Of a stretch of 64,000 bases of DNA, positions 46,513-64,000 are shown one piece after another (the first letter of the stretch is position 1; each line of letters begins with the position of its first letter). Source of the DNA: Halorhabdus tiamatea SARL4B (GTDB taxonomy: Archaea; Halobacteriota; Halobacteria; Halobacteriales; Haloarculaceae); the NCBI RefSeq assembly GCF_000470655.1, contig NC_021913.1, positions 248,001 to 312,000 on the forward strand, given 5' to 3'. Both the position numbers and the translations under genes were made by a program. The notes under the pieces were generated by a model. That model was not told the DNA's origin and did not search any database. It saw only the letters and a list, made by a program, of their open reading frames with translations.

Positions 46513-47575
46513 GAGCGTGTCGTAGAATCCATCTCACAGCTTCTCACAGCCCGGGTTGTTTCCTCGCTCGTAGTTGGTGATGGCAACGGCGAGCCGTAGG
46601 CAGAGTGCAAGGAACACTTCTGTTCGTGCGTGGACGCGGCCTCGGGCGCGGACGTGCCCGAGGCCGCAGTCCTTGACTGCGTCGTTGGTTCGTTCGACTC
46701 CTGTCCGTTTGTTGTACGTCTCGTCCAAGATGGATTGTTTCAGCTGAACGTCCTCGCTGTGTTCGGTAATGCGGTCTTCGACCCTGTACTCGATATCTTT
46801 CGGATCGTCAGTGTTTCGCGGATTGTACGGCGCGATTGGCACGACCCCTGCGGCCAGCAGGTGGTCGTGCCAATCGAGGATATCATAGGCGCTGTCTCCA
46901 AGCATCCAGATCGGTGTATCGACGGTGAGCGCGTCACGTATGACGCGCATCGCCGTCTCCTGATCCGCTTGTTTCGCTTGTGTGAATTCCGCTGCTATCG
47001 GGATTTTTGCGCCGGTTGAGACGATTGTACAGCCGAAGCCGTAGTAGTACTCCTCGGCTGTTGGGTCGTAGTTCCACGATGCTGCGTCGTTGTACTGGAT
47101 CGCTTCGATGTGGGTCGAATCGATGGAGTACGTGGAGTCGAGCAGGCCGCAGGCGGCGGCCTGCTTGACAAGCCTGTCAAAGATATCGTCAATAACGTGT
47201 TCGAGGTCGGTGAGAAAGCGATCAATCGTGTCTCTGGATGGCGGTTTGTCGAGTCCACAGTAGTACCAGACGAGGTTGTGCTTGAGCTCTCTCGTCACCG
47301 GGCGTGTGCCGTAGACGTTTTCGTAGTAGCAGTGGAGAAAGCCGCGGAAGAGATCTGGTGGCTGATGCACTCGTGTTCGCCCCCGCTTTGAGGGGGCGAA
47401 CACGTCGTACTCCAGAAGAAACTCGAACTCAAGGTGTTCGAACAGCGGTACTGTCTCGGTAGCCGCTGCATTCAAAAAGTCGTCTACCGAAGCTACGTCT
47501 TGCAGGGCGTTGGTACTGCTGGACACAGTTTCCAAACCCTGCGGCCTCCCTTGGGAGGCTTTCTATGACACGCTC
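46513..47575 (-). mobile_element. DDE insertion sequence with GAGCGTGTC(A/G)TAGAA ends
   Basis: 1,063 bp. Left end GAGCGTGTCGTAGAA (46513-46527), right end TTCTATGACACGCTC (47561-47575), one mismatch over 15 bp. It holds one transposase. No matching flanks (AACTACATA versus ATCCAACTA), so no visible target duplication. Its ends are near-identical to those of the passenger units at 28.3, 33.0 and 38.2 kb. Confidence 0.75.
46534..47535 (-). CDS. IS4/IS5-superfamily transposase
   Basis: 333 residues. YSIDSTHIEAIQYNDAASW (first Asp), IWMLGDSAYDILDWHDHLLAAGVVPIAPYN (second Asp) and KRTGVERTNDAVKDCGLGHVRARGR (Glu with the R-x6-K/R spacing) form the DDE triad. Complete; a candidate to mobilise the transposase-less units sharing its ends. 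Confidence 0.8.
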   Translation of the reverse strand: METVSSSTNALQDVASVDDFLNAAATETVPLFEHLEFEFLLEYDVFAPSKRGRTRVHQPPDLFRGFLHCYYENVYGTRPVTRELKHNLVWYYCGLDKPPSRDTIDRFLTDLEHVIDDIFDRLVKQAAACGLLDSTYSIDSTHIEAIQYNDAASWNYDPTAEEYYYGFGCTIVSTGAKIPIAAEFTQAKQADQETAMRVIRDALTVDTPIWMLGDSAYDILDWHDHLLAAGVVPIAPYNPRNTDDPKDIEYRVEDRITEHSEDVQLKQSILDETYNKRTGVERTNDAVKDCGLGHVRARGRVHARTEVFLALCLRLAVAITNYERGNNPGCEKL

Positions 47576-47726
47576 ATCCAACTAACTTGAATAGCTAAGC
47601 CAAGTAGTTGATCTAGATAGTTAACATAAACAAAGAGTATAACTAAACGAAATAGCTGACTGATCCAGATAGGCAATTGACTTGTGTCGGACTAAGCAAG
47701 AAGTGTCCATTTTTGTGGCCTGGGAA

Positions 47727-50321
47727 ATGAATCGGTGTGTGTCATTACAACGGGCCCGCTCTATCGATGATCTCTTCGATACCGTGGCGGATTACGATCT
47801 CGTCCTAACGGTTGACGCGCCGCTCAGTCTCGCGCTCAATCGACGGCTGGACCACCCACGACTCGGTCGGTTCGCGGCAACGCCACAAATGCTGGCAGCT
47901 GACGAATTCCGCCCACAAGATCAACGACAACTCTTTCTCGCAGTGATCGATGCTACGGCACTCCCCTGGAAGCAGGCCGCCCATCTGATCGAGTTGATCC
48001 TTAGTTGCTGGGAAGAGACAGGTGACCATCAGGCGATCCTCGAGTTCGACCGCTACGATACACCGGAAACACGGGAAGTACTCGAGGTCATCGCGTCCGT
48101 CGAGAATGCGCATCGGGATCTCGACGAGTACCAGATCGACAAGGGCCTCGACGTCGCCGTCATCGGCGAAGCCCAGTTCAGCGCGCTGGACCGGTCGATC
48201 CTGCCCGCCGAGTACGACGCGATCGACCCGCTCACGAGCGAGGCCTTCGACCTGCCGGCGTTCCACAGCTTTGCCTCCCAGACGGCGATCGTCGAGGCGA
48301 TCGTGGACAACGTGACCAGCGAGAACGCCGACGACGTGGCGGTTGTCATGGACCGGGGCGGGCCGTTCCCCGCGCTGATCGAGTCGGCACTCGAAGCGCG
48401 AGACATTCCCTTCTACGGCGGGCCAGGCTTCGCCGACGACGAGGGACTGCGAACGTTCTTCGAATTACTGAGGCTTGCACACGCAGATTCGAGAGTACGC
48501 GTCGGGGATGTCCAACCGATCGCTCGCAGTCTCGGAATCGAGCTCCCCGTAACGGACGATCAGAAACTCCTCCGTGAACTTGATGGGCGGACAATCGAAC
48601 CGATCCAATCCTTCTGCGAGGACGTCGGCGAGTGGACCTTCGGCGAGGCGCTCGGAGAGTTCGCAGATCTGTCGGACCGGTCACTGGACGCTGTTCGTGC
48701 CGAACTCGACGTGCTCGGGTTGGTGGACAAGCCGGTCACGGACCGGCGGCTCGACGACCTGGCGTTTTACCTCAGTGCGTTCGACGTGCCGATCGACCGC
48801 GAGGACAGCGGCGTCCTGCTCGCCGACGCGAAAACGTCGGTCTATGTCGACCGGCCCGCCGTCTTCTATCTCGGCCTCGACGCCGACTGGACCCATCAAG
48901 TCATCGATCGGCCGTGGATCGACACCGAACAGAAGGACCGTGAGCACCTCCGGCAGTTCCAACTGCTCCTCCAGAACGGTCGCGAACAGTACTATCTTGT
49001 CCAGGAAACCAGCGCCGGCGAGCCGGTCCGTCCGTGTCTATACTTCCACGACCTTCTGGACGACGAAATCGAGGCGTTCGACGACTTCGAGACCATCCCG
49101 CACACGTATCGGCGAGGAGATGGCTCAACCGGTTTCGAGCACGACCCCGTCAACGCAGCGCCCGAGCCGATCGAGACGATCAGCCAGTCGAGTCTCAACA
49201 CGTTCGTCAATTGCCCGCGCGATTACTTCTTCGACCAGCTCGTCGAGCAACCCGATCGGGACTACTTTCGGAAGGGCAATTGCTATCACGACTTCGCCGA
49301 GTTCTACGTCAACCATCCCGATGTGGTCGCTGATGCGGATCGGACAGAACTCGTCGACCGCTTCCTCGACGAACTCCGGCCGTTCATCGATCAGGTGGAT
49401 CGTGACGTCCTCGAAACCGAGTTTGAGGTGGGCCTCGAACTGATCGAGCGATTCGTCGACGAGCACCCACCGGTCGAGCGTGACTACGACGAGTACGAGG
49501 TGCTGCCGTTCGGGAACCTCGTTGCCGACTATTTCGATCACCCGATCGATTCACCGATCACCGAGCAGTGGTTCGAAAATCCGGCCCTCGGCGGGAAAGG
49601 CAAGGTAGATCTTATCCACTCGTCGACGCAACTACTGGATTATAAGAGCGGGTCAGCGAAATCCGCGTCACAGGTCATGGATCGCTCATCGATCGAGGAG
49701 ATCCACGACAAGCCGGACTTCCAGGCCATGCTCTATCTCGCCCACCACCGACAGGTCCGTCCCGACGAACCGATCAACTTCGTGTTCTATCACTTCCTCG
49801 ATCTGGTGGACGACGCCATTACCGGATCCGCCGATGTCGAGGACGCGCTCGTCCGCGTGACCTACTATCCCGTGGCGTTCGACGAGTGGGCCGGCACGCG
49901 GACGGCGTTCGACGCACTCTGTGAGGGCGTCGCGGAGAGCAACGATCGACGGAAAACACTCGAAAAGTTGGGATATGACGCGTATGCCCAGTTCCTCGGT
50001 TCGCACACGTTTCCCGACGTCGACGAGAAGGAGATACTCCTCGATACCGAGTTTGCGGATGCATTCGTCAGGTACGCTCGCGACCGAGTCGGCGAGTACA
50101 AGTATGTCACGTCGGGAATCGAGAGCGCGCTCAAAACTTTGCTCGACCTGCGTGGCGAGAACTACTACCGTGACGATGTCGACGCCTTCGAGGCGTTCCT
50201 CGACGAGCAGATCGATCTGATCAACGAGTATCGAGAGTCGTCGTTCCCGGTCGGCGATCCCAACATGGATCGCGTGACCCATCGCGACCTGCTGCTGACC
50301 GAGGAGGCTAGCGATGACTGA
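47727..50321 (+). CDS. AddB-like protein with PD-(D/E)XK nuclease domain
   Basis: About 864 residues. The N-terminal helicase-like region starts SIDDLFDTVADYDLVLTVDAPLSLALNRRLDHPRLGR; it lacks a Walker A, as in AddB. QSSLNTFVNCPRDYFFDQLVEQPD and LGGKGKVDLIHSSTQLLDYKSG (Asp...Asp-Tyr-Lys) form a RecB-type nuclease site at about residues 495-640. I do not see the four cysteines of the AddB iron-sulphur cluster. Its stop overlaps the AddA-like start by 8 bp, so the two act as one complex processing DNA double-strand ends. Start uncertain (GTG 47739 also possible). Confidence 0.75.
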   Translation: MNRCVSLQRARSIDDLFDTVADYDLVLTVDAPLSLALNRRLDHPRLGRFAATPQMLAADEFRPQDQRQLFLAVIDATALPWKQAAHLIELILSCWEETGDHQAILEFDRYDTPETREVLEVIASVENAHRDLDEYQIDKGLDVAVIGEAQFSALDRSILPAEYDAIDPLTSEAFDLPAFHSFASQTAIVEAIVDNVTSENADDVAVVMDRGGPFPALIESALEARDIPFYGGPGFADDEGLRTFFELLRLAHADSRVRVGDVQPIARSLGIELPVTDDQKLLRELDGRTIEPIQSFCEDVGEWTFGEALGEFADLSDRSLDAVRAELDVLGLVDKPVTDRRLDDLAFYLSAFDVPIDREDSGVLLADAKTSVYVDRPAVFYLGLDADWTHQVIDRPWIDTEQKDREHLRQFQLLLQNGREQYYLVQETSAGEPVRPCLYFHDLLDDEIEAFDDFETIPHTYRRGDGSTGFEHDPVNAAPEPIETISQSSLNTFVNCPRDYFFDQLVEQPDRDYFRKGNCYHDFAEFYVNHPDVVADADRTELVDRFLDELRPFIDQVDRDVLETEFEVGLELIERFVDEHPPVERDYDEYEVLPFGNLVADYFDHPIDSPITEQWFENPALGGKGKVDLIHSSTQLLDYKSGSAKSASQVMDRSSIEEIHDKPDFQAMLYLAHHRQVRPDEPINFVFYHFLDLVDDAITGSADVEDALVRVTYYPVAFDEWAGTRTAFDALCEGVAESNDRRKTLEKLGYDAYAQFLGSHTFPDVDEKEILLDTEFADAFVRYARDRVGEYKYVTSGIESALKTLLDLRGENYYRDDVDAFEAFLDEQIDLINEYRESSFPVGDPNMDRVTHRDLLLTEEASDD

Positions 50322-53196
50322 ACCCACGCCGAACGCCCGGCAGCGTGAGCTGATCGAGGCGACCGAGGGGATTCACGTCGTCGACGCCGGCGCCGGGACT
50401 GGCAAGACCTTCGCCATCACGCGCCGGTATGCGAATCTGCTCCGAGAGGGGTACGAGCCAGAGGACGTACTGTTGGTCACGTTCACGAACAACGCCGCCA
50501 CCGAGATGAAAGAGCGCGTCGTCGCGCGGTGTGACTACTCCATGTCTGCGCTCCGGGACGCGCCGATCAGCACGTTCCACAGCTTCTGTCATGACCTGCT
50601 CCTCGAATACGGGACCGACGCACCGTCGTATCTCGGCATCGACGACCAGATCACCGGCTCGACGCAGCTGCTCGAGAACGAGGTCATCGAAGCCGATCGC
50701 TTCCGGACCTTCCTCTCGCAGTTCGTCGACGCCCATCACGAACACGAGGCTGTGTTCCGCGTGCTCAACGACCCGATGTCCCTGCTCGAGCTGATCAGAG
50801 AGCTTGCCGCGAAGGGCGTCTTCCCGACCGTGGATGGGTGGTATCGTGACGGCGAGGTCTCTCTGGACGGGGATTTCGAGGCCTTCGAGACGCTGTTCGC
50901 CGAAGCGAACGCGCCGAACGAGGGTGCGAACGGGGCCACGCAATCGGACCTGCGGGACTCCCTGAGCGGCTTCGAACGCGAAAGCTGCTTCCTCCCGGAC
51001 GCACCCGGCGAGGACGAGTTACGAGACGGCTATCCCTCGATCGACGCGAAGTGGGCCGAAAAAGCGTTTGTGGAGGATCGCGAGGCGCTGAAGGACTTTG
51101 TCCACGACATCTACGTCGAGTACATCCAGTTCGCGCTCCGGCGGAACTACCTCAACTTCAGTTTCCTCCAGCTATTCGCGTTCGTCCTCCTCTGTGAGGA
51201 TCACGCGCTCCGCGAGTCGATCGCCTTCGAGCAGGTGATGGTCGACGAGTTTCAGGATACCAGCGAGATCCAGTTCAAGCTGGCACTCTTACTCGCCGAA
51301 ACCGACAACTTCTGTGTCGTCGGCGACTGGAAGCAGTCGATCTACGGTTTCCAGTACGCCGCCGTCGAGAACATTCGCTCGTTCGAACGACGACTCCAGG
51401 CGTACAAACGCGAACTCAACGGCGAGCACGAACGCGTCGACTTCCCCGTCCAGGAGGTGAACACGATCCCACTGCGGCGGAACTACCGCTCGACGCAGTC
51501 AATCCTTGATCTCTCGCGGCACGCGCTGACGGTGCCCGCGACGGGCAGCGAGTCGGTCGACCGAACCGTCGATGACATCGACGGGCTCGAGGCGGCGACT
51601 GATCGGGACCACTCAACGATCGCGGCGTTCACGAGTGCGAGCGAACACAAGGCGATCCTCGATCGGATCGAGACGATCGTCGGCAACGACGCCTACGCGG
51701 TCAACGACGAGAACGGCGACCTTCGCACTCCACGCTACGACGACATCGCGGTTCTCACCCGGACGCGACGCTTCGGTCGGGAGTTACAGACCACGGCCGA
51801 CGAGTTCGGCGTCCCGGTCGCCTATGAGGGCGGCGTGAAGCTCTTCGAGACCGATCAGTCGATCCTGTTGCTCGCGTGGCTCCGAATTCTCGCTGACGAG
51901 GACTCGCGACGTGGCTGGGCGGTCGTCCTCGAACAGGCTGGCTACACGCTTGCGGAGGTTGAGCGGATCTTCGAGGAGCGAGCGTATCCTGACGCAATGG
52001 TCGCGTTCCGTGATCGACTCGCGGGAATGGAGTCTATCGGGGCGATCGCCCGCCAGGTCTTCGAGCGGTACGGCTACGACGACGCGTATGCAAGTTCGCT
52101 CGTCGCCCTCCTGCAGGACGTCTCGGACGGGACGACGCGGAATCTCGGCGGGATGATCCGCTTCATCGAGCGGAGTCTGGACGCTGAGGCGACTCACGAG
52201 ATCGACGACAACCCTGGTGGGGACTCGATCACTGTCCAGACGATCCACGCGGCCAAGGGACTCGAGCACCCGATCGTGATCGTCTCGAATATCAACCGGT
52301 ACAGCTTCCCACCATCGGGTGGCGGCGACGACCGTATCCGCTACGAGGATCCGATTGGACTCCGCCAGACGAAGCTGTCTTCGACAGCCCACGGCCGGCC
52401 CCACCGCTACGACAACTGGCGGTATCGCGTGCTGTCGGCCTGTCTGGATCGTGACTACGACGAGGAGCGCCGACTGCTCTACGTCGCGATGACGCGAGCG
52501 CAGGATCACCTGCTGTTCTCGGCGGGCGCGGAGCCGAGTCCACTGTTCGAGAACCTGCCGCTGGAGGCCGAGTCCGTCGAGCCGGAGCTCAAGGGCTCTG
52601 GGATCGACCGGACCGAACAGACGCGATTGCAGGTGTCAATCCCCGAGCCCGACGTGCCGGCGGGCCAGTCACCCCACGCCCTGATGGACGACCGGGTGTT
52701 TGAGGACCGCGATGAGGGCCGTGGGATCGAGTTCGGCAATCGAGTTCACGACTTCGCCGAGCGGTATGCCGCCGGTGAGGAGATCGAGCCTGCGAGTGAT
52801 GACGAACGGCGGGTGCGAGAGTTCATTGACGAACTGGACGGAACGCTACTTGTCGAAGAGGACGCCTATCTGCCAGTCTCGGTCGGGGAACAACAGGTAA
52901 CGATCTCCGGCGTAATCGACTTGCTACACGTGACTGACGATCGTGTCGAGATTGTCGATTACAAGACCGATCGTACCCGGGACGCCGAAACCGAGTATCG
53001 CAAACAGCTAAGCGTCTACTATCATGTCGTCCGACAGCTGTATCCCGATCGAGAGATTGTTCCAAGACTCTTCTATTCTGGTGAAGGTACCGTTGTAGCC
53101 ATCTATCCACTCTCGATGGGATCTCTCTCGGATCTGGTTAAAGTCGAACGGAAATCAAATGGAAGCGATCAGGGCGAGAATCCCATCAGTCGATAG
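50314..53196 (+). CDS. AddA-like UvrD/RecB helicase-nuclease
   Basis: 960 residues. Walker A VVDAGAGTGKTFAITRRYA (about 23-38), VTFTNNAATEMKERV (motif Ia), VMVDEFQDTSEIQ (motif II), VGDWKQSIYGFQYA (motif III), LRRNYRS (motif IV), VQTIHAAKGLEHPIVIV (motif V), RRLLYVAMTRAQDHLLFS (motif VI). A C-terminal PD-(D/E)XK nuclease, SGVIDLLHVTDDRVEIVDYKTDRT, is near residue 870. Overlaps the AddB-like gene by 8 bp. Roles: recombination repair and degradation of foreign linear DNA. Convergent with the BREX helicase gene (21 bp between stops). Confidence 0.85.
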   Translation: MTEPTPNARQRELIEATEGIHVVDAGAGTGKTFAITRRYANLLREGYEPEDVLLVTFTNNAATEMKERVVARCDYSMSALRDAPISTFHSFCHDLLLEYGTDAPSYLGIDDQITGSTQLLENEVIEADRFRTFLSQFVDAHHEHEAVFRVLNDPMSLLELIRELAAKGVFPTVDGWYRDGEVSLDGDFEAFETLFAEANAPNEGANGATQSDLRDSLSGFERESCFLPDAPGEDELRDGYPSIDAKWAEKAFVEDREALKDFVHDIYVEYIQFALRRNYLNFSFLQLFAFVLLCEDHALRESIAFEQVMVDEFQDTSEIQFKLALLLAETDNFCVVGDWKQSIYGFQYAAVENIRSFERRLQAYKRELNGEHERVDFPVQEVNTIPLRRNYRSTQSILDLSRHALTVPATGSESVDRTVDDIDGLEAATDRDHSTIAAFTSASEHKAILDRIETIVGNDAYAVNDENGDLRTPRYDDIAVLTRTRRFGRELQTTADEFGVPVAYEGGVKLFETDQSILLLAWLRILADEDSRRGWAVVLEQAGYTLAEVERIFEERAYPDAMVAFRDRLAGMESIGAIARQVFERYGYDDAYASSLVALLQDVSDGTTRNLGGMIRFIERSLDAEATHEIDDNPGGDSITVQTIHAAKGLEHPIVIVSNINRYSFPPSGGGDDRIRYEDPIGLRQTKLSSTAHGRPHRYDNWRYRVLSACLDRDYDEERRLLYVAMTRAQDHLLFSAGAEPSPLFENLPLEAESVEPELKGSGIDRTEQTRLQVSIPEPDVPAGQSPHALMDDRVFEDRDEGRGIEFGNRVHDFAERYAAGEEIEPASDDERRVREFIDELDGTLLVEEDAYLPVSVGEQQVTISGVIDLLHVTDDRVEIVDYKTDRTRDAETEYRKQLSVYYHVVRQLYPDREIVPRLFYSGEGTVVAIYPLSMGSLSDLVKVERKSNGSDQGENPISR

Positions 53197-53217: not shown

Positions 53218-56136
53218 TCAGAGTGGGAGTGTCAAACAGTAGTTCTCAACTTCAGGCGCCAGTGAAATGACCTGCTCCCGACGATTCAGCTCTTGGCGAC
53301 GTGCCTCGATTCGTTCTTCGAGCTTTTCGAGGCGTTCACGCTGGCCCCGGATCGCGATGTCCATATCCGAGCCGGCCTTGGACTTGCGTTCGTACTCCTC
53401 GATAAAGGACTCGATGCGCTCGCGTTCGGACTTTGCGTACTCGTTGAGGTTCTCGAGTTCCCGGTCGGTCTCCTCGTGACGTTTTGAACTGAGGTCGGAC
53501 TTGATCTCGTTCACCCGAGCACTCACATAGCGGTCGGCAGCTTCACGAAGTTCGTCCTCGGCATCCACTACGGTCCGGATGTCATCCACCGCTGGTTTCG
53601 CAGATACCGTCTCACCCTCAACAACCCGCTCGCCGAGCGCCTGTTGGGCATCTCGCTGCTCGGCGTCGACGAAGACGGGGATTGTCTCCTCGCGGATTAC
53701 CTCTCCCGTGCCATCCTCGAACGCCACGCGATAATTGTAGGTGACTCCCGGCGTGTCGACGAACGGGAGGAGTTTGAGGCCGACCTCTCCCCGATCGGAC
53801 TCCAGCACGCGTGCCATGAGTCGCTGGAGGACGTCCGTGTCGGGCGCAACGAACGTAATGTCCTCGTGATCCATCGCGAACTCGCGGTCGAAGGTAAACG
53901 GCCCGAAGGTCGCGTCCGCGTTCGGTGGACGGATGTCGTCGGGTAATTCGGCCTGATAGAGATTGGTGCCGCGCTTCTCGAACTCGCCGTCGAAGGCCTC
54001 GACTGCCTGCTCGAAGAACTCTCGAATGTCGCCCTCGCTCCCGTAGACGTCCTCTGACTCGTCGACGACCTCCTGGATCTGCCGGCGACTCTCGGCATCA
54101 AACGTGCTCGTATCGACGAGGCTCCGCTCGTACCACTCTTCGAGCGTCCGCTGGCGCTCCTCGATCATCTCCTCGAGTTCCTCTTTGGTCGCACTCGGCG
54201 GTTCGTCGTTCTCGATGGACTCCATAATGAGCGAGTCCACGTCGATGTCGTCGAGGATGCCGAGCACGTCAGCCGTGTTTCCGAGTTGAGAACGAATCTC
54301 TTCGACCTTGGTCTGGAGCATCTCGAAGATCTCGCTTTCGCGGGTGTCGTCGAAAAGGAAGTTCCAGACTTTGACCTCCTCCTCCTGTCCGTAGCGATGA
54401 ATACGACCGATCCGCTGCTCAAGGCGGTTCGGGTTCCACGGAAGCTCGTAGTTGGCCATGATGTGGCAGCTGTGCTGGAGGTCGATCCCCTCGCTCGCTG
54501 CGTCGGTCGCGAACAGGAGCCGCGACTGGCCGTGGTTGAATTCGTCTTCGATCCGCGCCCGGTCGTCCTTGTCCACGTCGCCGTGAATCACGAGAATCTC
54601 GTCCGCCCACGGCTCGTCCTGCACGTACTTGAGGAGATAGTCGAGCGTATCGCGGTACTCCATGAATAGCAGGAGTTTCTCGTCCGGCTGCTCCTCGAGG
54701 AGTTGGGAGATGAACCGTCTGACCTTCTGTGCCTTGGAGTCGACCGGCAAATCTTCCGCCAGCGAGACGAGGTCGCGGAGCGTATCGATCTCCTCTTGGA
54801 GCTGTTCGTCGGTACTAGTGACGGTCAGGCCGGCAATCTCGTCTTCTGCATGTTGCTTGTCGTCCTCGTCCAGATCCTCACCGTCGAGATAGGCTCGCGC
54901 TTCCTCGGAAAGGCCGTCAGTATCCGCCTCTTCGTCGAGAAGGTCGTCCAGTCGTCGACGGAGTGTCGCATGAATCGCGCCGACACTGCTCACCAGCCGT
55001 TTCTGCATTAGCGCCATCGCGAACCCGACGGCAGGTTCGTTTAACTTCTCCGAGCGGTTGTAGACGTTTTTGACGTAGTCGGTGACCGCGCGGTAGAACT
55101 GCCGCTCGTCGTGCGTCATCGAGACCGATACCGAGTTGACCTTCCGGTCTGGGAAGACGCGTTCACCATCCTCGTCGTAGATATCGGTCTTCCCGCGACG
55201 GATCATCACGCGGTCGACTGTCTCCTGTGAGAGTTCCCGGTTCTCGGCGACGAGGAACGGGTCGATATACTCGACTAGTGAGCGGAACGCCTCGCCCTTC
55301 CCGTCGTGGGGCGTCGCGCTGAGAAGCAGCAGCGAGTCGGAATTCCCAGTAACGGTATCAACCATGTTTGCCGTCTTGCTCGGTGATTCCCCTCGCTTTG
55401 CGGCCTTGTGTGCCTCGTCGACCACGACGACGTCCCAGAACGCTTCCCGGAGTGCAGGCCGGAACTCTTCCTGTCGCAGGAACGCCATGCTGGTGACGAG
55501 CTGTTGCTGGTCTTGGTTCCAGATGTTGGCTTCCTCGCCAAGCCGTCGACGTTCACCTTCGACCCACGCCCGGTCTGCGACGGTTAGATCGACGTCGAAG
55601 AAGCGATCCATATCTCGTATCCACTTCTTCTGGAGGTGAGCGGGGACGACGAATAGGGCACGGTCGGCGCGATTCCGGGCGGCGAGTTCCTTCAGGATGA
55701 GTCCCGCCTCTATCGTTTTCCCGAGCCCGACATCATCGCCGATGAGCGCCCGCTGCCGAAGCTTCTGCATCACCCAGTTCACGGCGTCGAGCTGGTAGGG
55801 TTCCAGTCGAACAAGCGAGTTCGAGATGCTCAGGAGCTGCCCCTGCTCGTGGGCGAGCTTGAGTTTCGTCGCCTGCGTGTGGAGGTCGAACCACTGTGCC
55901 GAGACCGCATCGTGATTAGGATGAAGATCATCAATTCGCTGGTTGGACAGTTCCTCGATCCCGGATCGATGCGGTTGAATCTCGACATCGTCGAGACAGA
56001 CCGTCTTAGCGCCCTCCCCTTTGATGTATGCTCTCAGATACTCGATCTCTCCGACCGTTTGGGTTTTGATGACTTCAGCCGGCGCTCCGTTGAGAATCAC
56101 CCGCTGCCCCGGAGAGAACTGGGTAGAGTTTGTCAT
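53218..56136 (-). CDS. brxHII: SNF2-type helicase of BREX (BrxHII-like)
   Basis: 972 residues. Walker A LIGDDVGLGKTIEAG (about 131-145), VVVVDEAHKAAKRGE (DEAH box), LLLLSATPHDGKGE, then a helicase C domain with LLFATDAASEGIDLQHSCHIMANYELPWNPNRLEQRIGRIHRYGQ. A long C-terminal coiled-coil region (SARVNEIKSDLSSKRHEETDRELENL) follows. DrmD of DISARM is a close relative, so the family alone is ambiguous, but position in an operon with pglX and pglZ makes BrxHII the better call. Last gene of the minus-strand operon, 55 bp after the nuclease gene. Confidence 0.75.
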   Translation of the reverse strand: MTNSTQFSPGQRVILNGAPAEVIKTQTVGEIEYLRAYIKGEGAKTVCLDDVEIQPHRSGIEELSNQRIDDLHPNHDAVSAQWFDLHTQATKLKLAHEQGQLLSISNSLVRLEPYQLDAVNWVMQKLRQRALIGDDVGLGKTIEAGLILKELAARNRADRALFVVPAHLQKKWIRDMDRFFDVDLTVADRAWVEGERRRLGEEANIWNQDQQQLVTSMAFLRQEEFRPALREAFWDVVVVDEAHKAAKRGESPSKTANMVDTVTGNSDSLLLLSATPHDGKGEAFRSLVEYIDPFLVAENRELSQETVDRVMIRRGKTDIYDEDGERVFPDRKVNSVSVSMTHDERQFYRAVTDYVKNVYNRSEKLNEPAVGFAMALMQKRLVSSVGAIHATLRRRLDDLLDEEADTDGLSEEARAYLDGEDLDEDDKQHAEDEIAGLTVTSTDEQLQEEIDTLRDLVSLAEDLPVDSKAQKVRRFISQLLEEQPDEKLLLFMEYRDTLDYLLKYVQDEPWADEILVIHGDVDKDDRARIEDEFNHGQSRLLFATDAASEGIDLQHSCHIMANYELPWNPNRLEQRIGRIHRYGQEEEVKVWNFLFDDTRESEIFEMLQTKVEEIRSQLGNTADVLGILDDIDVDSLIMESIENDEPPSATKEELEEMIEERQRTLEEWYERSLVDTSTFDAESRRQIQEVVDESEDVYGSEGDIREFFEQAVEAFDGEFEKRGTNLYQAELPDDIRPPNADATFGPFTFDREFAMDHEDITFVAPDTDVLQRLMARVLESDRGEVGLKLLPFVDTPGVTYNYRVAFEDGTGEVIREETIPVFVDAEQRDAQQALGERVVEGETVSAKPAVDDIRTVVDAEDELREAADRYVSARVNEIKSDLSSKRHEETDRELENLNEYAKSERERIESFIEEYERKSKAGSDMDIAIRGQRERLEKLEERIEARRQELNRREQVISLAPEVENYCLTLPL

Positions 56137-56191: not shown

Positions 56192-57469
56192 TTATCGGGC
56201 CTCCGTTCCGGCGAACGACCGTAGGGTACGTTCGATCTCCGACTCAACGTACTCGATTTCTGCACTGTAGGCATCTACGATGTCGGCGTAATACTGCGGT
56301 ATCTTCCCAGCCAGTTCCCGACTCTCAAACTCCTCGGTGTACGTCTCCAGAATGGAACCCGCGGCGGCTTCGTTGACCAACGTCCGTTCTTCGTTCTCGA
56401 TGAATTGTGTGAGGACTGGCTGCATTACCGAATCGGGGACATCAATGGCACGCTCGGCCGGGAGTATCGACTCGAATAATCCTCCGCCGAGGTACGGTAC
56501 GTCGCTGAAGCTCTCTGGAAGTTCGGCGTCGCGCTGCTGTTTTGGAGTCGAAAGCGCATCGTAGAACAACGGCTGGAGGTATTGAGAGTAGAAGCTTCCC
56601 CGGAACCGATTGAGCCCCTGATTATGCTCGCCCCACTGGGAGTGGAGAGCGACACGGTCGAGGATACCGCGATCTGCCAGCAGTTTCACGAAGGCAAGTC
56701 GGTCAACGAGTAGTGCCGCGATGGCCAGTTTCTCGGACTTTGAGGCGTCTGTCGGGTGCTCGATTGCGTCAACGAGGGCTGCATCCAGATGCTGGTATTC
56801 ACCGTTGCCCGTAGTTACCTCCAAGTAGAGGTCGTAAAACTCGGTCAGCCCCCCGATAGCTCGCCGGATACCATAGTGATTGAACGTCTGGTAGAAGTCA
56901 CCCAACACTCCTTCGACGGTGCCGTTTTCCTGCAGCTCTTCGGTGTAGCTGACCAATCCTTGATTGCGGGCAATCTGTCGTACCGCTGGTGCGATGTTCT
57001 GCTCTTCGACGACGGTGACGAGATCTGCTCGACCGCGTTCATCCGTTTTGACGGCGTACATTCCCCATCGGAATCCGTCAGTCGAAAACCCGTACTCGTA
57101 TCGGCGTGAGTCGAGGTACCCCTCGATGTCACCCTGCGCGGTTTCGAAGTTGTTGACCGATTTGTTCTCTCCGATAACCGCTTCAGAGAGATTGTCGATT
57201 CGGAAGTCCGGCTGCTCATCGCTGTCACCGACGGGATAGTACGGTCTTGGTGTATATTCGTAGCCGAGCGTCTCCAGAATCGGCCAGATGAGAGCATCTT
57301 CGACACACCGCTCGGGTGTTTGGCCGAGATTCTTGCTCTGAAGTGTGCCGTCTGCCTCGACGACCTCACTGAGCCGTGGCTCGTCCATCTGGTTGTCAAG
57401 CGTCGTCAGAAAGTCGATGATGTGACTCCGAATAGCGGTGGTCGCTTCTTCTATTTCCTGTGATGACAT
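56192..57469 (-). CDS. PD-(D/E)XK nuclease protein resembling the N-terminal half of a type IIG enzyme
   Basis: 425 residues. RPYYPVGDSDEQPDFRID...AVIGENKSVNNFETAQGDIEGYL gives a PD-(D/E)XK site (D88, E101, K103). The second half (AIAALLVDRLAFVKLLADRGILDRVALHSQ...FRGSFYSQYLQPLFYDALSTP...FSDVPYLGGGLFESI) matches the helical spacer preceding the methyltransferase in Eco57I-type enzymes. The protein ends there, with no SAM motif or NPPY. It starts 21 bp after pglZ. A cleavage effector working with the BREX methylase is a reasonable inference; it could also be a truncated type IIG gene, but the frame ends cleanly. Confidence 0.7.
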   Translation of the reverse strand: MSSQEIEEATTAIRSHIIDFLTTLDNQMDEPRLSEVVEADGTLQSKNLGQTPERCVEDALIWPILETLGYEYTPRPYYPVGDSDEQPDFRIDNLSEAVIGENKSVNNFETAQGDIEGYLDSRRYEYGFSTDGFRWGMYAVKTDERGRADLVTVVEEQNIAPAVRQIARNQGLVSYTEELQENGTVEGVLGDFYQTFNHYGIRRAIGGLTEFYDLYLEVTTGNGEYQHLDAALVDAIEHPTDASKSEKLAIAALLVDRLAFVKLLADRGILDRVALHSQWGEHNQGLNRFRGSFYSQYLQPLFYDALSTPKQQRDAELPESFSDVPYLGGGLFESILPAERAIDVPDSVMQPVLTQFIENEERTLVNEAAAGSILETYTEEFESRELAGKIPQYYADIVDAYSAEIEYVESEIERTLRSFAGTEAR

Positions 57470-57490: not shown

Positions 57491-59686
57491 TTAGCCCTGC
57501 GTGATGCTGATGAAGTCGAGCACGAACTCCTGTGGTAGAAGTCCGCCGTGGTAGAACCGCGCGTCACCGAGCCCCTGCTTTCTGAACCGCTTCAGTGGGC
57601 TCGCAAGGATGCTGACATCGGCGTCGAGGTATCCCAGTCGGGAACTGGAGTCGAGTAGCACGCCGGGCGAATCCTCGGCCACATCCTCCCCGGCGATCCA
57701 TCGGCGCCCGGAGTCGGACGCTTCCGCCGGCCGCGAGATCTTCTCCGGCGACGCGTTGTCTGGGAGCAGAACGAACCCGTGGTCGGTCAACACGTAGGCC
57801 TGATCCCACTCGCCCTGTTTGAGTTTCGTGCCAATGAACTCCGCAAGCGAGTCGACGCGTCGCGCCAGCATCGCCTCGAGATCGTTGAGTTCCTTCTCAC
57901 CGATGTCGTCGATGTCGTTCTTAAAGTAGGCGACTCGCGTCGACTGCCAGCCGTCTTCCTCCTCCTCGCGAGTGACCGTCCAGCCGTCGCCACCCAACAA
58001 CGACTCGCGGCGGTTTGTCGTCACACGACGATTGTTTCGGCGGGGCTGTAACTCACCATCGACCAGCGAGACATCGAACATCTGGATCTCTCCCGGCGTG
58101 AGTGCAGCCTTCCCGAACTCGGTCTCTGAGGGGAGCGTTCCGAGCCAGACGTCTTCATCGACGGCAAACTCGGGGGCGTCGGCCGGGAGTGTCGCCACGT
58201 AGTCACGCAATTCGTCCGCGAGCCGGCGAGCGAGGTCGAGCCGAAGGGCGTCGATGACGAACAGCGCAATAGTCTGGCCGCTTTCGAGGCCGTCTGATTC
58301 CTTCGTGAAGAACTGGTAGGAGTGATCTTCGTCGACGAACGGAGCGCCAGCTTCGACGGTATCGGTGACGAGGTCGCCGAGGTCTTCGAGGTACTCGACG
58401 TATTCCGATTGGAGTTGGGTTCGGAGGTCGTCGAGCGCGGCGGTCGCGGGATGATCATCGGGGAGGTCGGTCTCGGGCTCTCCCGCGACGACGAGGTTGA
58501 GCACCGCGTTGTCGATCTGCCATGTGCCGTCGTCCCGATCGGCGTACAGCGAGACGACGTCGTCGGTGGCGCTCTCGTCCCACGTTTCGAGCTGGTGCGC
58601 GAGGCGAGCGATCTCTGCAGCCTGCTCCCACGTCCGCGTCCACGGACTGTCCGGGCCGTAGGCTCCCTGGTAGGAGCCACGGAAATCCTCGCTCCCGAGC
58701 AGAGCGTCGTACCGCTCCTCGGCGCGCTCGAGACACGTCTCGTAGTCGCCGGCGTCGAAGGACGCGTGCCACTCCTCCCAGAGGCGACGTTCGAGCGCGG
58801 CGTCGACGATACAGTCCGCGAGTTCCCACGGGTCGTCGACGTCCGCGACGACATCGGGCCAGATTGCCTCGCCGAGGTAGCGGTCGGCGAGGAGGCTGGC
58901 CGAGGTGGTATTGTTCAACAGCGACTTGAGCTCTGGGAGGTCGTGGTCGCCGGCCGTCTCGGCGCGGAACTCCCTCGGGAAGCGTTCGGCGTCGGCGCCG
59001 GCGTGGATCAGCCACTCGGCGACTGCCCACCGACGCGTCGCCGCGACGATCCCCACGGGTTCGTCCTTGCTAGCGACCGCGTCGACGCCCTCGCTGGTCA
59101 GCAAGTCCTGCATCTGCTCGATGGTGTCGGAACTGTCGTCAATGTCGCCCCAGCCATTCTCCAGTACGAACGCGACCGGATCAGTGTAGCCGCCGGTGAC
59201 GATCTGCGTGCGGAGCTGTTCGAGCGTCGGGAGTTGTCCGCCGGTGAGTTGGTCGTGGAGGATCCGCGCGATCTCGCGGCGCTTCGTGGGGTCGTCCGCC
59301 TGCGTCGCCGTTTTTAGCTCCCACGCATCGAGTTGCCCGCGCTCGAACGCGTGGACGGTGAGGTCTTCGATGCTCATCTCCACCTCGCTCCCCGTGTGCT
59401 GGACGTCCCGGAACCAGTCGTAGTCGCCCTCCTTGTCTGCTGGCTCTTTGACGTGGGGGACGTACCAAACCTGCTTGCCATCTACTGGGTCAGCGCGTAG
59501 TTCGAGCGGTGTCTTCTCGGCAGTCTTTAGCGGGACGCCGAGTTCGTCGCAGGCCTGCTCAATGATGTCCTTGAGGTAGTTGTCGTCGTCCCACCAGAGG
59601 ACTATCGGATCTTCCGACTCTGCTCCATCGAATTTGCGGCGAATTGTATCTTTCGCGGCCTCTGGGAGAGATTTTGAAGCTTGCAT
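57491..59686 (-). CDS. pglZ: BREX alkaline-phosphatase-fold protein PglZ
   Basis: 731 residues. C-terminal PglZ domain: TIALFVIDALRLDLARRLADEL (metal-binding Asp, about residue 475), WLGTLPSETEFGKAALTPGE, and VLTDHGFVLLPDNAS (metal His/Asp, about residue 634). The N-terminal ~440 residues are the helical PglZ scaffold (DPIVLWWDDDNYLKDIIEQACDELGVPL at the start is a usual opening). PglZ is the hallmark of all BREX systems; its phosphatase-like activity is needed for defence in known cases. It starts 2 bp after the SMC-like gene, so it is translationally coupled. Confidence 0.9.
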   Translation of the reverse strand: MQASKSLPEAAKDTIRRKFDGAESEDPIVLWWDDDNYLKDIIEQACDELGVPLKTAEKTPLELRADPVDGKQVWYVPHVKEPADKEGDYDWFRDVQHTGSEVEMSIEDLTVHAFERGQLDAWELKTATQADDPTKRREIARILHDQLTGGQLPTLEQLRTQIVTGGYTDPVAFVLENGWGDIDDSSDTIEQMQDLLTSEGVDAVASKDEPVGIVAATRRWAVAEWLIHAGADAERFPREFRAETAGDHDLPELKSLLNNTTSASLLADRYLGEAIWPDVVADVDDPWELADCIVDAALERRLWEEWHASFDAGDYETCLERAEERYDALLGSEDFRGSYQGAYGPDSPWTRTWEQAAEIARLAHQLETWDESATDDVVSLYADRDDGTWQIDNAVLNLVVAGEPETDLPDDHPATAALDDLRTQLQSEYVEYLEDLGDLVTDTVEAGAPFVDEDHSYQFFTKESDGLESGQTIALFVIDALRLDLARRLADELRDYVATLPADAPEFAVDEDVWLGTLPSETEFGKAALTPGEIQMFDVSLVDGELQPRRNNRRVTTNRRESLLGGDGWTVTREEEEDGWQSTRVAYFKNDIDDIGEKELNDLEAMLARRVDSLAEFIGTKLKQGEWDQAYVLTDHGFVLLPDNASPEKISRPAEASDSGRRWIAGEDVAEDSPGVLLDSSSRLGYLDADVSILASPLKRFRKQGLGDARFYHGGLLPQEFVLDFISITQG

Positions 59687-59688
59687 GA

Positions 59689-62163
59689 TTACTTGTCTTT
59701 CTTTAGATTGATGTCCGTGTTTGAGCAGTTACATCGCATACTGACTGGTCTATCTCCCTCCTCCAGAACACGTAGACAGGAGTTGCAATCTTCGCACCAC
59801 AACATTTCATAGAAATCTCGATATGCTTCAACTGCTGGCCTCAATTCTTCCGCAGTACATCGAGCAAACTCTGATTCTGTCTCATTCCAGTGAACATTTG
59901 GATTGAGTGCGGCACCATATTCATCCATTCGAGTTGAGACATCTCTCGCTTCATCTTCCAAATCCTGTAGATGATCTATATCTCTCCCCCACGAATTTTC
60001 CGCTTCCTTAGCTTTACTTAGAAGTTCTTTATAACGTGACACAGCCCCGTTTTTGAAATCACCCAGTGTCCATTGGCTATCCGACTTGAAGGGAACTTTT
60101 GCATCTAAACGGTCACAAGCTTCACGGAGAAACCACTCTCCCATACGCCTTGTCTGGTGGGCAGCAATGGATGTATTGCCCTTTTCCAATTCAGCTTCGA
60201 TAGTTTCCCATTCCATTTCTGGTCTCTCCAAGGTCAAGGGTCCGTCCTCAATATTCCACCCTGAAAACTGAACGGCGTTTGATGAGTATACAACTCCAGA
60301 TGACCTCAGATGCCGATGCCATAGATCATCATGCGTGGCTATGATCATTTGGTACTCTTCGGTGAGTTCTGAGCCCATCAGCTTCGCTAGCGGACGTCTG
60401 TGATCCGCATCAATCGACATCACCACGTCATCAAGCATTATGATCGGCAGGTCTTCTTGCTCCTGCAGCCAATCACAGAGAGCCAAATACAGACAGATAC
60501 CCATACTATCCTGATGACCCTCGCTGTGCAGAGCGTGTGGTGGATACTGACCTTTTTGATAGAAGTCCACCTCCACGTCCAATCCAGTCTCTGTCGGATT
60601 CAGACCGATGCTAAAGTCACTTTCGTCGCCATGGATCGAAGTGTAGTACTGTTCGAACTGATTTTCTATTTCGGTGTAGATCTGGTTCAGAATCTCGTCA
60701 CGCGCATCGATAAATGTTTGATGCGCTGTTTTCATATCCTGAGCTACTTGGCGTCTCTTCGACGCACTATAGCTCACCTCAATCATTTCATTATACCGGC
60801 TTTCAGCTGCATTGAGAGTCTGCCATGTCTCCTCCAATTCGTCAAGCTCAGGGCCACTCTGGATATGAGACACGATATTCTCAAGTAGCGTTTTCAACTC
60901 GGACGGCGTCAGTAAGTCTCGACGTTCCTTGTCAGTCAAATCCTCTTTGGGAGGCGGCGATAAGAGGTCCTCGTCGTATTGATTCTCCCAATTAGAAATG
61001 GTCGTAATAAATTTCTCGACGGGTTCTTGGTCGAATCGTTCAACACCCCGCAGAATTTCAACGAGTGACTCCGCAGTTACTCGGACATCGGTCAGGTGTT
61101 GCTGCGCGGCATCGTTCTTTGATTCCAGATCGTCTAAGGCCTCTTCGAGCTGTTTTGCTTTCTCCAGTCGATCGGTTAGGTGGTCCTCAAGTTCGTCTGG
61201 TTCCCACGGATCCAAACAAAGCGGACACCGCTCATTCTCAGGCTCAATCGCATCACGACCGAGGCGAATGAGCTGTTGCTGTTCTAGAGCACGAATCCTT
61301 TCGGAATCTGCGTCTATGTCGTTCCACTTTTGCCGGAACTCACTGTCAGCTTCGAGAAATTCCTCGACGCCTTCTTCAAGCCACTCCTGAATTTCCAAGA
61401 CGCGTTGTCGTCCGTCTGACCGGAGAAGAGGAGAGGCGACTACACGTCTGGAAGGCGAATCAATGCCTGACAAAAATGACTCGTCGGTGATCCTGTTGAG
61501 TGAGTCTCCCTCCAACTCATCACGAAAACGATTAATCCCATCAACAATTCTCTCATCAGAGTCTAGATCCAACGTCTCTCGGAGGCTAGATCGATGGCTT
61601 TCTGCTTCACGTTCTAGCTCGCTGGCCTGAGTATCGAGTTTGTCATAGGCATTTTCGAGAGCAAGTCTCCGGTCTTTGACGTTCTCGATATTCAGTAGAG
61701 TTCGCAATCTCTCAGAACGAGTCCCACTCTTTGCAGTGATGAAGTCAAGAATTTCATCTCGAGACAGAAGGTGCAATCCTCTATCTGCAGCACTGGCAAC
61801 TGACTCAAACCGATCGGAACAGTCTTCATTTTCGGTTTCAATTGATGGACTGTCTCTATTATCTAAATCTCGACGAACAGTAACCGTGTTCCCATCAAGA
61901 GAAAAGCCACACTCTACCCAAGCCTCATTTGGCTCCGCATCGACGTGTGGCCCATGACGCTTTTCAGTAATTGATCGAGTTCCTTCTCCAGAAAGATCTT
62001 GGATCGTACCAGTCAAAAGGAAATCAATTGCTTCGATTACCGAGCTCTTCCCCGATCCATTCGGTCCGACGAGAACGATATTGTCCTTGCTTGGTTCGAT
62101 CTCGAACTTCCCTTTGATACCTCTGAAATTCGAAATTGTAAGCCTCTCAATCTTCATTTTCAA
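59689..62163 (-). CDS. SMC/Rad50-like ATPase inside the BREX operon
   Basis: 824 residues. Walker A NIVLVGPNGSGKSSVIEAIDFLL (about 29-50), a central Rad50-type hook CPLC at about residue 312 flanked by short coiled coils, ABC signature HSEGHQDSMGICLYL (about 543) and Walker B LPIIMLDDVVMSID (about 570). A C-terminal extension of ~200 residues ends in CEDCNSCLRVL...CNC, a second zinc site. The coiled coils are much shorter than in chromosomal SMC. It overlaps the small gene upstream by 17 bp and is 2 bp from pglZ. Not a standard BREX component; resembles ATPases of Lamassu/RecF-like defence modules. Confidence 0.8.
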   Translation of the reverse strand: MKMKIERLTISNFRGIKGKFEIEPSKDNIVLVGPNGSGKSSVIEAIDFLLTGTIQDLSGEGTRSITEKRHGPHVDAEPNEAWVECGFSLDGNTVTVRRDLDNRDSPSIETENEDCSDRFESVASAADRGLHLLSRDEILDFITAKSGTRSERLRTLLNIENVKDRRLALENAYDKLDTQASELEREAESHRSSLRETLDLDSDERIVDGINRFRDELEGDSLNRITDESFLSGIDSPSRRVVASPLLRSDGRQRVLEIQEWLEEGVEEFLEADSEFRQKWNDIDADSERIRALEQQQLIRLGRDAIEPENERCPLCLDPWEPDELEDHLTDRLEKAKQLEEALDDLESKNDAAQQHLTDVRVTAESLVEILRGVERFDQEPVEKFITTISNWENQYDEDLLSPPPKEDLTDKERRDLLTPSELKTLLENIVSHIQSGPELDELEETWQTLNAAESRYNEMIEVSYSASKRRQVAQDMKTAHQTFIDARDEILNQIYTEIENQFEQYYTSIHGDESDFSIGLNPTETGLDVEVDFYQKGQYPPHALHSEGHQDSMGICLYLALCDWLQEQEDLPIIMLDDVVMSIDADHRRPLAKLMGSELTEEYQMIIATHDDLWHRHLRSSGVVYSSNAVQFSGWNIEDGPLTLERPEMEWETIEAELEKGNTSIAAHQTRRMGEWFLREACDRLDAKVPFKSDSQWTLGDFKNGAVSRYKELLSKAKEAENSWGRDIDHLQDLEDEARDVSTRMDEYGAALNPNVHWNETESEFARCTAEELRPAVEAYRDFYEMLWCEDCNSCLRVLEEGDRPVSMRCNCSNTDINLKKDK

Positions 62164-62395
62164 GAACTTCCTCTTCGATCAATTCTGTAATTTCGTTGCC
62201 TCCTCCGAAATCATCTTTCTCGAGTTGAGCTTCCATTACTTCCGTCACATCAAAGTCCACGTCGGATTCCTGTAGTCGGCGCATGAATTCCCCAGCGATT
62301 CGCTCTTCAACATCCCCGGTTTGGAACTCGGCAGAACCCTTTTCTTCGGACATACTCTGCCCCTTTACCGCCTCCCTAATTAGAGTATCTGTCAC
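62147..62395 (-). CDS. Small acidic protein, partner of the SMC-like ATPase
   Basis: 82 residues, very acidic: EEKGSAEFQTGDVEERIAGEFMRRLQESDVDFDVTEVMEAQLEKDDFGGGNEITELIEEEVLENED. No known motif. Its 3' end overlaps the SMC-like gene by 17 bp, a sign of coupled translation. Position and size parallel the small third subunit in SMC-like defence systems, but there is no sequence evidence for homology. Confidence 0.6.
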   Translation of the reverse strand: MTDTLIREAVKGQSMSEEKGSAEFQTGDVEERIAGEFMRRLQESDVDFDVTEVMEAQLEKDDFGGGNEITELIEEEVLENED

Positions 62396-62462: not shown

Positions 62463-64000
62463 TTAGAGTATCTTGTCCTCAACGATATCCGGAACGACAC
62501 TCTGCTCCGCGAGCGGTGTGATATTGATCGCGACCCCATGCTTCTGGTTGGGCTGGTAGCCGGCGGTCGTAATCTCCGACAGCGCCCGATCCGACCAATC
62601 AGAGGGAATCCGCTTATCGACGGTCTGACAGCGGTCGTCGATCTCTTCGGCCAGCGCCTTGAACTCCGCTAGCGGCGGTAGGTCGTCAACGTCATCGACA
62701 TCTTCATCGTCCGCAACCTGTTCGAGATACTCCTCGTTGATGATGGAAGCGTCGTCTACTCCCGTCGCGAGCGAGGCAAGCATTCGTTCGTCCTCGGTCA
62801 AATTGTCGAAGGGGTCCCCGTCTTCGTTCAGCAACTCGGCTCCCTCGCGCTCGAAGTAATATGTCATGAAGAGGATGCCCGTACTGGAGTAGTGATCCGA
62901 GCCCTTGAGCCGCCAGTTGAAGTAGTCGAAGAGGTCGGCGAGATGTGCCTCGACAGGTTCGTCGCTCGGCTTGGCGTACTCCTCGCAAGCGTGTTCGAGT
63001 TCGTCGAGTGCGTCCAGCCACTCCTCACGCCACTCGTCAACCTTGTTCCAGAACCCATCGGAGAAGGTATCCTGGAACCACTCCTCGTCGTTCCGTTCCC
63101 GGAGTTGTTCAAGTGTGTCGATACGCTCGGCGGTCTCATCGCGGAACGCGGCGACCTTGGGTGCGAGTTCCTCGACGAGTTCGCGGTCGTCCGCGTCGAA
63201 GTCCCGCTCGCTGGTGGAGCCGAGTTCCTGCATCACCTCTTCGAATTCGGCGATCTGTTCGAGGGCGCTCGAACAGAACTCGAACTCGTCGGTCGCATCG
63301 GCGCGGTCGCTCGTGGAGAGTGACTCATCGTTCCGGCGCTGGTTCGCTGCCGAGCGGCGGTCGCGGAGTTCGGCCTTCCGCGGTTCGAGGTACTCGTTGC
63401 TCAAGCGGTCGAACAGGCTGGCGTCGAGTTGGTGGTAGTCGACGAAGCACGCGAAGCCCTCGCCCTTCGCGTCGGCGAGGAGTCGGGCTGTGCTGAGCTT
63501 CCAGACGATGGGCGTATTCTCCATCGTATCGACGTGGTAGGCGAAGAGGTCATCCTTGATGAACGACCGGAGGTTGGGATACGCCTCGTCGCCGGCGGAT
63601 TCGGCCCCGAGGATGCCGTCGACCTCGACGAGACGGTCTTCGGCGTACTCGCCGTAGGCGTCTTCGAACCGCTCGACGATGCGGTCGAGCAAATCGGCCT
63701 GTTCGTCCGTGCCTTCGAGCGGGATGATGCCGTCCGATTCCTCGCGGACAGCCTCCATCGCGAAGTGGTGGACGAGGTCTTTGACTTGTTCATTTAGAGG
63801 AATATCGACTGGATTCTTTTTACCCTGTTTCACGGTTTCTGCCGTACGGAGTGAGATTTCTCGTTCGATATCGAATTGAGCCTCCTTTCCGATGTCCAGC
63901 GACCTATACATGTGATCGTCAACCTCTTGAGCATATTTTTCTAAGGCATTCCTGGCTTCTTGCATCTGTTCGACAGATTTCTCAGCAAGTTCCGCTAATG
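62463..64000 (-). CDS. pglX: BREX adenine methyltransferase PglX, C-terminal part (runs off the right edge)
   Basis: The frame is open from 62463 to the window edge (about 512 codons; an ATG at 63965 is internal). The segment FIKDDLFAYHVDTMENTPIVWKLSTARLLADAKGEGFACFVDYHQLDASLFDRLSNEYLEPRKAELRDR is the PglX target-recognition/C-terminal region. A long helical spacer and NWRLKGSDHYSSTGILFMTYYFEREG, and the end QHGVAINITPLAEQSVVPDIVEDKIL, follow. The catalytic SAM-binding part would be to the right. PglX methylates host DNA to mark it as self. First visible gene of the operon. Confidence 0.85.
   Translation of the reverse strand, partial: LAELAEKSVEQMQEARNALEKYAQEVDDHMYRSLDIGKEAQFDIEREISLRTAETVKQGKKNPVDIPLNEQVKDLVHHFAMEAVREESDGIIPLEGTDEQADLLDRIVERFEDAYGEYAEDRLVEVDGILGAESAGDEAYPNLRSFIKDDLFAYHVDTMENTPIVWKLSTARLLADAKGEGFACFVDYHQLDASLFDRLSNEYLEPRKAELRDRRSAANQRRNDESLSTSDRADATDEFEFCSSALEQIAEFEEVMQELGSTSERDFDADDRELVEELAPKVAAFRDETAERIDTLEQLRERNDEEWFQDTFSDGFWNKVDEWREEWLDALDELEHACEEYAKPSDEPVEAHLADLFDYFNWRLKGSDHYSSTGILFMTYYFEREGAELLNEDGDPFDNLTEDERMLASLATGVDDASIINEEYLEQVADDEDVDDVDDLPPLAEFKALAEEIDDRCQTVDKRIPSDWSDRALSEITTAGYQPNQKHGVAINITPLAEQSVVPDIVEDKIL

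Follow-up and report, generated by a model that had tools for sequence, protein, structure and literature searches.

The window analysed here, a 64,000-nt stretch of Halorhabdus tiamatea SARL4B (NC_021913.1, positions 248,001 to 312,000, forward strand), holds a gene pair, a small acidic gene followed by an SMC-like ATPase gene, which is encoded on the minus strand and flanked by pglX and pglZ of a BREX-5 locus. On balance, we favour the view that these two genes form a defence module complete in itself, made up of a RloC/PrrC-like ABC-HEPN protein and a small dedicated partner, and lodged as a guest in the BREX-5 pglX-pglZ slot.

The gene pair and its locus

The genes of the locus and the starts considered below are as follows:

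53218..56136, minus strand: BrxHII helicase, downstream context
57491..59686, minus strand: PglZ of BREX-5 (NCBIfam BREX_PglZ_5, 1173.7 bits), downstream context
59689..62157, minus strand: ATPase gene, 822 aa from the conserved ATG (824 aa from a TTG at 62163)
62147..62353, minus strand: small acidic partner gene, probably 68 aa
62397..62404, minus strand: TATA-like box TTTTTATA, recognised by eye immediately 5' of the GTG of the small gene
62463..63998, minus strand: C-terminal part of PglX of BREX-5, upstream context; the gene continues beyond the end of the window

Both open reading frames of the first-pass annotation, a small one of 82 aa from a GTG (62147-62395, minus strand) and an ATPase of 824 aa from a TTG (59689-62163, minus strand), were found where it had placed them, along with the CPLC hook and the C-terminal cysteines. 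The 17-bp overlap that it had given for the two genes holds with these GTG and TTG starts, which are those of the open reading frame list, but not with the conserved ATG of the ATPase at 62157, which is most likely the true start and leaves an overlap of 11 bp. The same 11-bp overlap was seen in 8 of 28 loci; 27 of these loci overlap by 1-26 bp, and the range extends to a 3-base gap in one (L062). The small protein probably starts at the ATG at 62353 (68 aa) and not at the GTG at 62395, since its homologues align to that Met and the GTG follows directly on the TATA-like box.

Downstream of the ATPase the genes are in the order PglZ, a 425-aa protein and BrxHII. The 425-aa protein (56192-57469, minus strand) gave a borderline match to DUF7814 and weak matches to type IIG enzymes, and is possibly a further BREX-5 accessory. 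The BREX locus is adjoined by an AddAB-like pair (47682-53196, plus strand), consisting of a PD-(D/E)XK protein and a UvrD helicase-nuclease, whose first gene is no more than 20 kb from the ATPase in 7 of the 16 genomes with the pair, at 196 bp downstream in two, and of which a second copy, 90% identical, is present in G000. Just past it, a DDE transposase of the IS1182/IS5 kind (46534-47535, minus strand) marks the edge of a mobile/defence island. Four open reading frames were also noticed between brxC and pglX (L031:8808-13381, minus strand), one of which resembles a nucleotidyltransferase and another a winged-helix protein at its start, as judged by eye; the four perhaps make up another guest module.

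Distribution of the pair and coupling of its two genes

The pair occurs in salt-loving archaea and several bacterial groups. The ATPase had matches in 35 of 391 Halobacteria genomes, 16 of them long and 19 short, and in G363 its gene is split across two contigs. Plasmid records gave 40 matches, 19 with at least 80% query coverage, mostly from alphaproteobacteria along with haloarchaea and Bacteroidota, and 12 of the 40 matching records were taken for locus inspection. The ATPase was also found in a Nitrospirota MAG and in viral contigs. Phage records yielded no ATPase match, nor did a search of genome contigs with a single-protein query; the viral scans returned one duplicate and mostly head-only matches, and a further one returned none.

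In 28/28 loci the ATPase is preceded by an open reading frame of at least 50 codons (57-103) that ends at its start, against 4.4 expected from shuffles (first-order resampling of the 300 upstream bases, 200 per locus). This set of 28 was drawn up without L049 (5' end off the contig), L063 (head-only), L065 (no N-terminus), the weak matches L017-L030 and the duplicates, L045 and L048 being the loci of L055 and L054, and L067 and L068 contigs of L064 and L066. Furthermore, the distances among the small proteins correlate with those among the ATPases (mirror-tree r = 0.867, 0/2000 permutations; n = 26, as the small proteins of L046 and L053 are absent from A2). With a small open reading frame in every locus and agreeing protein distances, the ATPase and the small gene are an obligate two-gene module, and the coupling of the small gene to the ATPase that the first-pass annotation had proposed is thereby borne out. 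When a profile of the small protein was searched against 382 Halobacteria genomes, 16 strong matches emerged (E ≤6e-12), all of them at an ATPase start, and none with E <0.001 away from the ATPase, the next match having E = 0.001. As 14 of the 16 either had gone into the profile or were identical to a sequence in it (the exceptions being G344 and G363), the useful result is that nothing strong was found elsewhere in these genomes.

The small protein of the window found no family in Pfam, PADLOC, NCBIfam, and PHROGs searches. In none of the 28 loci is the small protein less acidic per residue than its ATPase, though in bacteria its acidity is only mild, and its strong acidity here may partly be a salt adaptation.

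The C-terminal domain and the cysteine tail

Residue numbers of the ATPase count from the conserved ATG at 62157. Behind the ATPase head lie:

59800..60240, minus strand: probable HEPN domain, residues 640-786, with R670, E674, and H756
59725..59796, minus strand: zinc tail CxxC...CxC, residues 788-811

Residues 640-822, modelled alone, gave a pLDDT of 84.3 and a pTM of 0.82. With this model Foldseek returned no match at E <0.001, a HEPN entry (1o3u) standing at rank 20, and VIA-align placed HEPN-type structures at ranks 1-13 with Z of 8.0-6.1; since helical bundles can reach Z of 8-13 by chance, we grade a HEPN fold of this domain as probable and not as proven. Among these thirteen, the titles of 4nqf, 2hsb, 3o10, 1wol, and 1o3u name HEPN, three entries are MntA-HepT toxin-antitoxin structures and one is a Csm6; 1wty, 2q00, 1ufb, and 1wwp, whose titles do not state HEPN, we take to be HEPN-type as well. 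No RloC or PrrC structure was among the VIA-align matches listed.

R670, E674, and H756 are present in 16/16 A1 members having the domain, with an E-to-H spacing of 80-87; three A1 members are without it. In a wider set of 26 rows, 24 have the domain; E and H are found in 24/24 and R-x3-E in 21/24, while the remaining three (L059, L061, and L066) show RN-x4-H at the same column. RN-x4-H is the textbook HEPN motif, and it is Bacteroidota-type relatives that carry it. The pattern Rx4-6H with a polar residue after R is thus found in these three rows, and the branch of the window has R-x3-E and NxxVH instead. It could be argued that a HEPN-fold domain of this kind is not a nuclease but a regulatory domain that binds RNA or protein and belongs to an ATPase handling DNA ends, given that the standard R of Rx4-6H is missing in most members, that the domain is dispensable in one clade and that, as described in PMC3710099, a HEPN domain which has no standard motif can be without catalytic activity. 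We regard this as rather unlikely, because the invariance of E and H and the near-constancy of R-x3-E in rows with the domain argue against it, catalytic-type residues conserved in a fast-evolving family being suggestive of activity.

The clade which dispenses with the domain (L047/L046/L055, support 97/95) lacks the tail as well, yet it keeps the small gene. The small partner therefore most likely works with the ATPase core, as judged from this comparison of sequences, and the idea that the C-terminal cysteine cluster is a docking site for the partner is not supported. Downstream of the HEPN-less L055 lies an annotated queuosine precursor transporter (L055:12143-12802), which offers a link to the tRNA wobble base and may be a coincidence.

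The conserved motif of the tail is CxxC-x11-17-CxC (788/791/809/811), with all four Cys in 16/16 A1 members having the domain; in the wider set CxxC and CxC were found in 22 of 24, the exceptions being L062 (only CxC by script) and L066. The CxxCxxC reported earlier as a possibly invariant cluster was located at residues 788-794, and alignment of relatives shows its third Cys (794) in only 7 of 16, for which reason an invariant CxxCxxC was rejected. Nor is the cluster special to this subfamily, as had been suggested; it is instead a zinc tail behind the probable HEPN domain, found across the family. In the C-terminal model the cysteine tail forms a beta hairpin, which would resemble a zinc ribbon.

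The ATPase head and zinc hook

The motifs of the head and the coil in the window are:

62044..62067, minus strand: Walker A GPNGSGKS, residues 31-38
61216..61227, minus strand: zinc hook CPLC, residues 311-314
60514..60525, minus strand: ABC signature SEGH, residues 545-548
60424..60435, minus strand: Walker B LDDV, residues 575-578, with Asp replacing the catalytic Glu

Alignments show Walker A, a SEGH-type signature, Walker B with DD and the hook family-wide, with CxxC in 28/28 members; the signature varies to SESH in four Bacteroidota-type rows and to SEGQ in L054. Walker B of L038 and L057 and Walker A of L066 escaped a motif script, but the alignments show all three. The ATPase passed the Pfam cut-offs of SMC_N, AAA_15, AAA_21, AAA_23, and AAA_29. 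In a profile search of PDB sequences, the heads of SMC3 and Rad50 were the closest among the matches listed, none of which was a full-length relative, and the full-length model, moderate in quality (pLDDT 64.8, pTM 0.44), led Foldseek to Rad50, SMC, and Lamassu LmuB structures. Taken together with the conserved hook, these searches support the earlier description of an ATPase of the Rad50/SMC type whose short coil carries a zinc hook. No NCBIfam cut-off was reached, and assignment of the ATPase as RecF, SMC, Rad50, MAD3, ASRP, or arcadin-4 was rejected, as all lie far below their curated cut-offs (for Rad50/SbcC, 24-30 bits against 454-1087).

The best PADLOC match of the ATPase is LmuB (109.5 bits, residues 1-620), a partial relative, and, with LmuB structures also among the Foldseek matches, the pair could be seen as a relative of Lamassu/ABC-3C, in which the ATPase would act as a sensor like LmuB and the small protein would be a reduced LmuC ('middle component'), while the effector would be absent or provided in trans. 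We hold this to be unlikely. Two small proteins that were searched matched no family at E <0.05 in Pfam, which contains ABC-3C families. No LmuA-type effector gene was recognised in the window or in the 12 annotated plasmid loci, and a HEPN domain built into the ATPase would make a separate effector unnecessary. The order of small gene before ATPase and the short coils are as in Lamassu, but LmuB usually has Gln in place of the Walker B Glu, both as described in PMC10586767, whereas the family of the window has Asp there, as do 9 of 13 RloC-like rows where the pattern was found.

A role in DNA repair, with the ATPase acting like SbcC/Rad50 and the small protein replacing Mre11, would suit the closeness of the head to SMC3 and Rad50 among the matches listed and the best PHROGs match, phrog_77 (SbcC-like, 90.1 bits, a partial relative). 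Such a role is quite improbable in view of the patchy distribution (16 of 391 genomes), the carriage on plasmids and viral contigs and the restriction neighbours of the pair, and the small protein would seem too short for a nuclease. Moreover, in G372 the pair adjoins separate Mre11- and Rad50-like open reading frames (L043:11494-15416), read by eye from their starts; with a Rad50-like neighbour of its own standing beside it, the ATPase of the pair is distinct from the Rad50 of that genome.

Nesting in restriction loci

The pair lies inside restriction operons in the window (BREX-5), in L039 and L041 (BREX-1-type, between PglX and PglZ and thus in the same slot as in the window), and in L066 (type III R-M, between a helicase and the type III Mod and Res). 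Near such operons it was found downstream of DndFGH (L032), after a DUF262 gene (L051), next to DUF499 and DUF1156 genes (L054), in an island containing PglZ (L036), and beside a restriction-enzyme-like gene (L034); in the other loci it stands alone, often on plasmids. Family searches back the labels of PglX and PglZ of L039 (assigned by PADLOC), PglZ of L036, DndFGH of L032, and Mod/Res of L066, while those of BrxA/BrxB/BrxC/BrxL in L036, L039, and L041, of PglX and PglZ of L041 and of Mre11/Rad50 of L043 come from the starts of open reading frames only; PglZ domains were confirmed in both L039 and L041. The window and L039/L041 fall into different supported clades of the tree, which means either that the BREX slot took up the module on more than one occasion or that the module was exchanged.

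That the pair is a fixed component of the BREX-5 machinery, as its place inside the operon with pglZ starting 2 bases past the ATPase stop and its use of the same slot in two BREX-1-type loci might suggest, is very improbable, as most pair loci lie outside BREX and PglZ is no commoner with the pair (4 of 16 pair-bearing genomes, adjacent and in the slot in three and about 13 kb apart in the fourth, against 84 of 382 overall).

Beyond the right end of the window, PglX of this BREX-5 locus is split (L031:2464-8357, on G000:C1), a 216-aa piece (profile positions 1-207 of 1412) and a 1209-aa remainder flanking an IS66-type transposase gene. Unless this is an assembly error, the ATPase-HEPN gene persists without an intact PglX, a point in favour of its product being restrained by parts of its own.

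Proposed mode of action and its significance

In the defence module that we favour, the Rad50-like head and the zinc-hooked coil would sense DNA ends or abnormal replication, and in the resting state the C-terminal HEPN domain would be kept off by the head, the hook and the small partner. A signal might then lead to an ATP-driven rearrangement which brings HEPN domains into an active arrangement, and these, by analogy with RloC and its tRNA anticodon loops, may cut RNA and halt translation, so that RNA cutting would serve as a backup, or guard, when restriction fails. As a hooked ABC-HEPN protein with its own small partner, the pair would fall between RloC and PrrC: restrained by that partner and movable between restriction systems. 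What the sequences show is the linkage of the two genes, the ABC head with its hook, the conserved R-x3-E and H and the recurrent nesting in restriction loci; the HEPN fold is predicted from a model, and RNA cutting, its trigger and target, the part played by the small protein and an antiviral function are inferred. Counted against this reading are a non-significant hhalign comparison with RloC-like domains (given below), the E-to-H spacing of 80-87, the null Foldseek result, the Z values that helical bundles can attain by chance, the three A1 members without the domain and the fact that PglZ is no commoner in pair-bearing genomes.

More tentatively, and with some doubt, we suggest that the pair represents a new two-component ABC-HEPN family, in which the obligate small subunit would keep the RNase in check as its built-in safety catch, just as PrrC is kept in check by the R-M enzyme. 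A built-in catch would let the cassette move between unrelated archaeal and bacterial restriction systems as a guard firing when restriction is disabled; if so, the catch must hold here without an intact PglX, its gene being split by the IS66-type element, while the HEPN residues remain intact. Should the guard reading be true, BREX and other restriction loci have a guard class beyond PARIS-type modules, in which a single chain joins an ABC ATPase that has a Rad50-like hook to a probable RNase and is always accompanied by a gene of 57-103 codons, and RloC/PrrC logic would extend to haloarchaea. An SMC-like gene of Halorubrum lacusprofundi that is reported to respond to virus HRTV-DL1 by induction (PMC10544981) might be a further member. 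The small gene also makes testable what silences an ABC-HEPN nuclease that has no R-M enzyme to restrain it. We found no literature on such a pair, haloarchaea included, in a search outside which lay most subscription journals and bioRxiv-only preprints; a 2020 classification of ABC ATPases may list the family.

Comparison with known systems

In RloC, the triad Arg-X3-Glu-X36-52-His was established by mutation and the zinc hook restrains the nuclease, according to PMC2610378, and both RloC and PrrC have been assigned to HEPN (PMC3710099). Purified RloC is described as activated by its ATPase with linear DNA, and in vivo by DNA breaks, even without R-M (PMC3874168). The family of the window is like RloC in having an ABC head interrupted by a short coiled coil with a CxxC hook, a C-terminal R-x3-E ... 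N-x2-[S/V]-H, Asp at the position of the Walker B Glu and, in some cases, a place in R-M loci. It is unlike RloC in its obligate small overlapping gene, none being annotated in the 7/7 RloC-like plasmid loci inspected, in its longer E-to-H spacing (RloC, 36-52), in its zinc tail and in having SEGH instead of LSEGE. All of the 13 RloC-like proteins that we collected have the hook, and 11 match R-x3-E...[NDQG]-x2-4-SH by script, L093 at a doubtful Arg. When the C-terminal domain was compared with these 13 by hhalign, the result was not significant (best P 0.0044 with the pooled profile, probability <10%, with R-x3-E in register). In Pfam AAA_13 the ATPase of the window scored 31.1 bits, a partial match below the cut-off of 36, and RloC-like archaeal proteins scored 130-765 bits. 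We call the family RloC-like and not RloC because the C-terminal comparison was not significant and the E-to-H gap is longer.

PrrC is held off by its type I R-M partner (EcoprrI) and released by an anti-restriction peptide, as described in PMC2610378 and PMC3710099. Compared by description and not by sequence, PrrC with EcoprrI resembles the pair in that an ABC-HEPN protein, as a second line of defence, is nested in a restriction operon; it differs in being restrained by the R-M partner, whereas the family of the window comes with a small partner of its own and moves among systems that are unrelated.

The likeness to Lamassu/ABC-3C lies in an SMC-like ATPase with a short coil and often a hook, preceded by a small gene; the family of the window differs in being without an LmuA effector, in its Walker B Asp instead of Gln and in a far shorter small protein without a Pfam match.

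ABC-ATPase modules (PARIS and other OLD-ABC) are described as riding in BREX loci as guests (PMC12839542, PMC11341690). Our pair is likewise an ABC-ATPase module inside BREX loci, but with a different ATPase that has a hook, and with HEPN instead of a separate nuclease. The 2026 BREX survey reports OLD-ABC, HEPN, and Schlafen backups (PMC12839542), and neither 'RloC' nor 'PrrC' occurs in its text.
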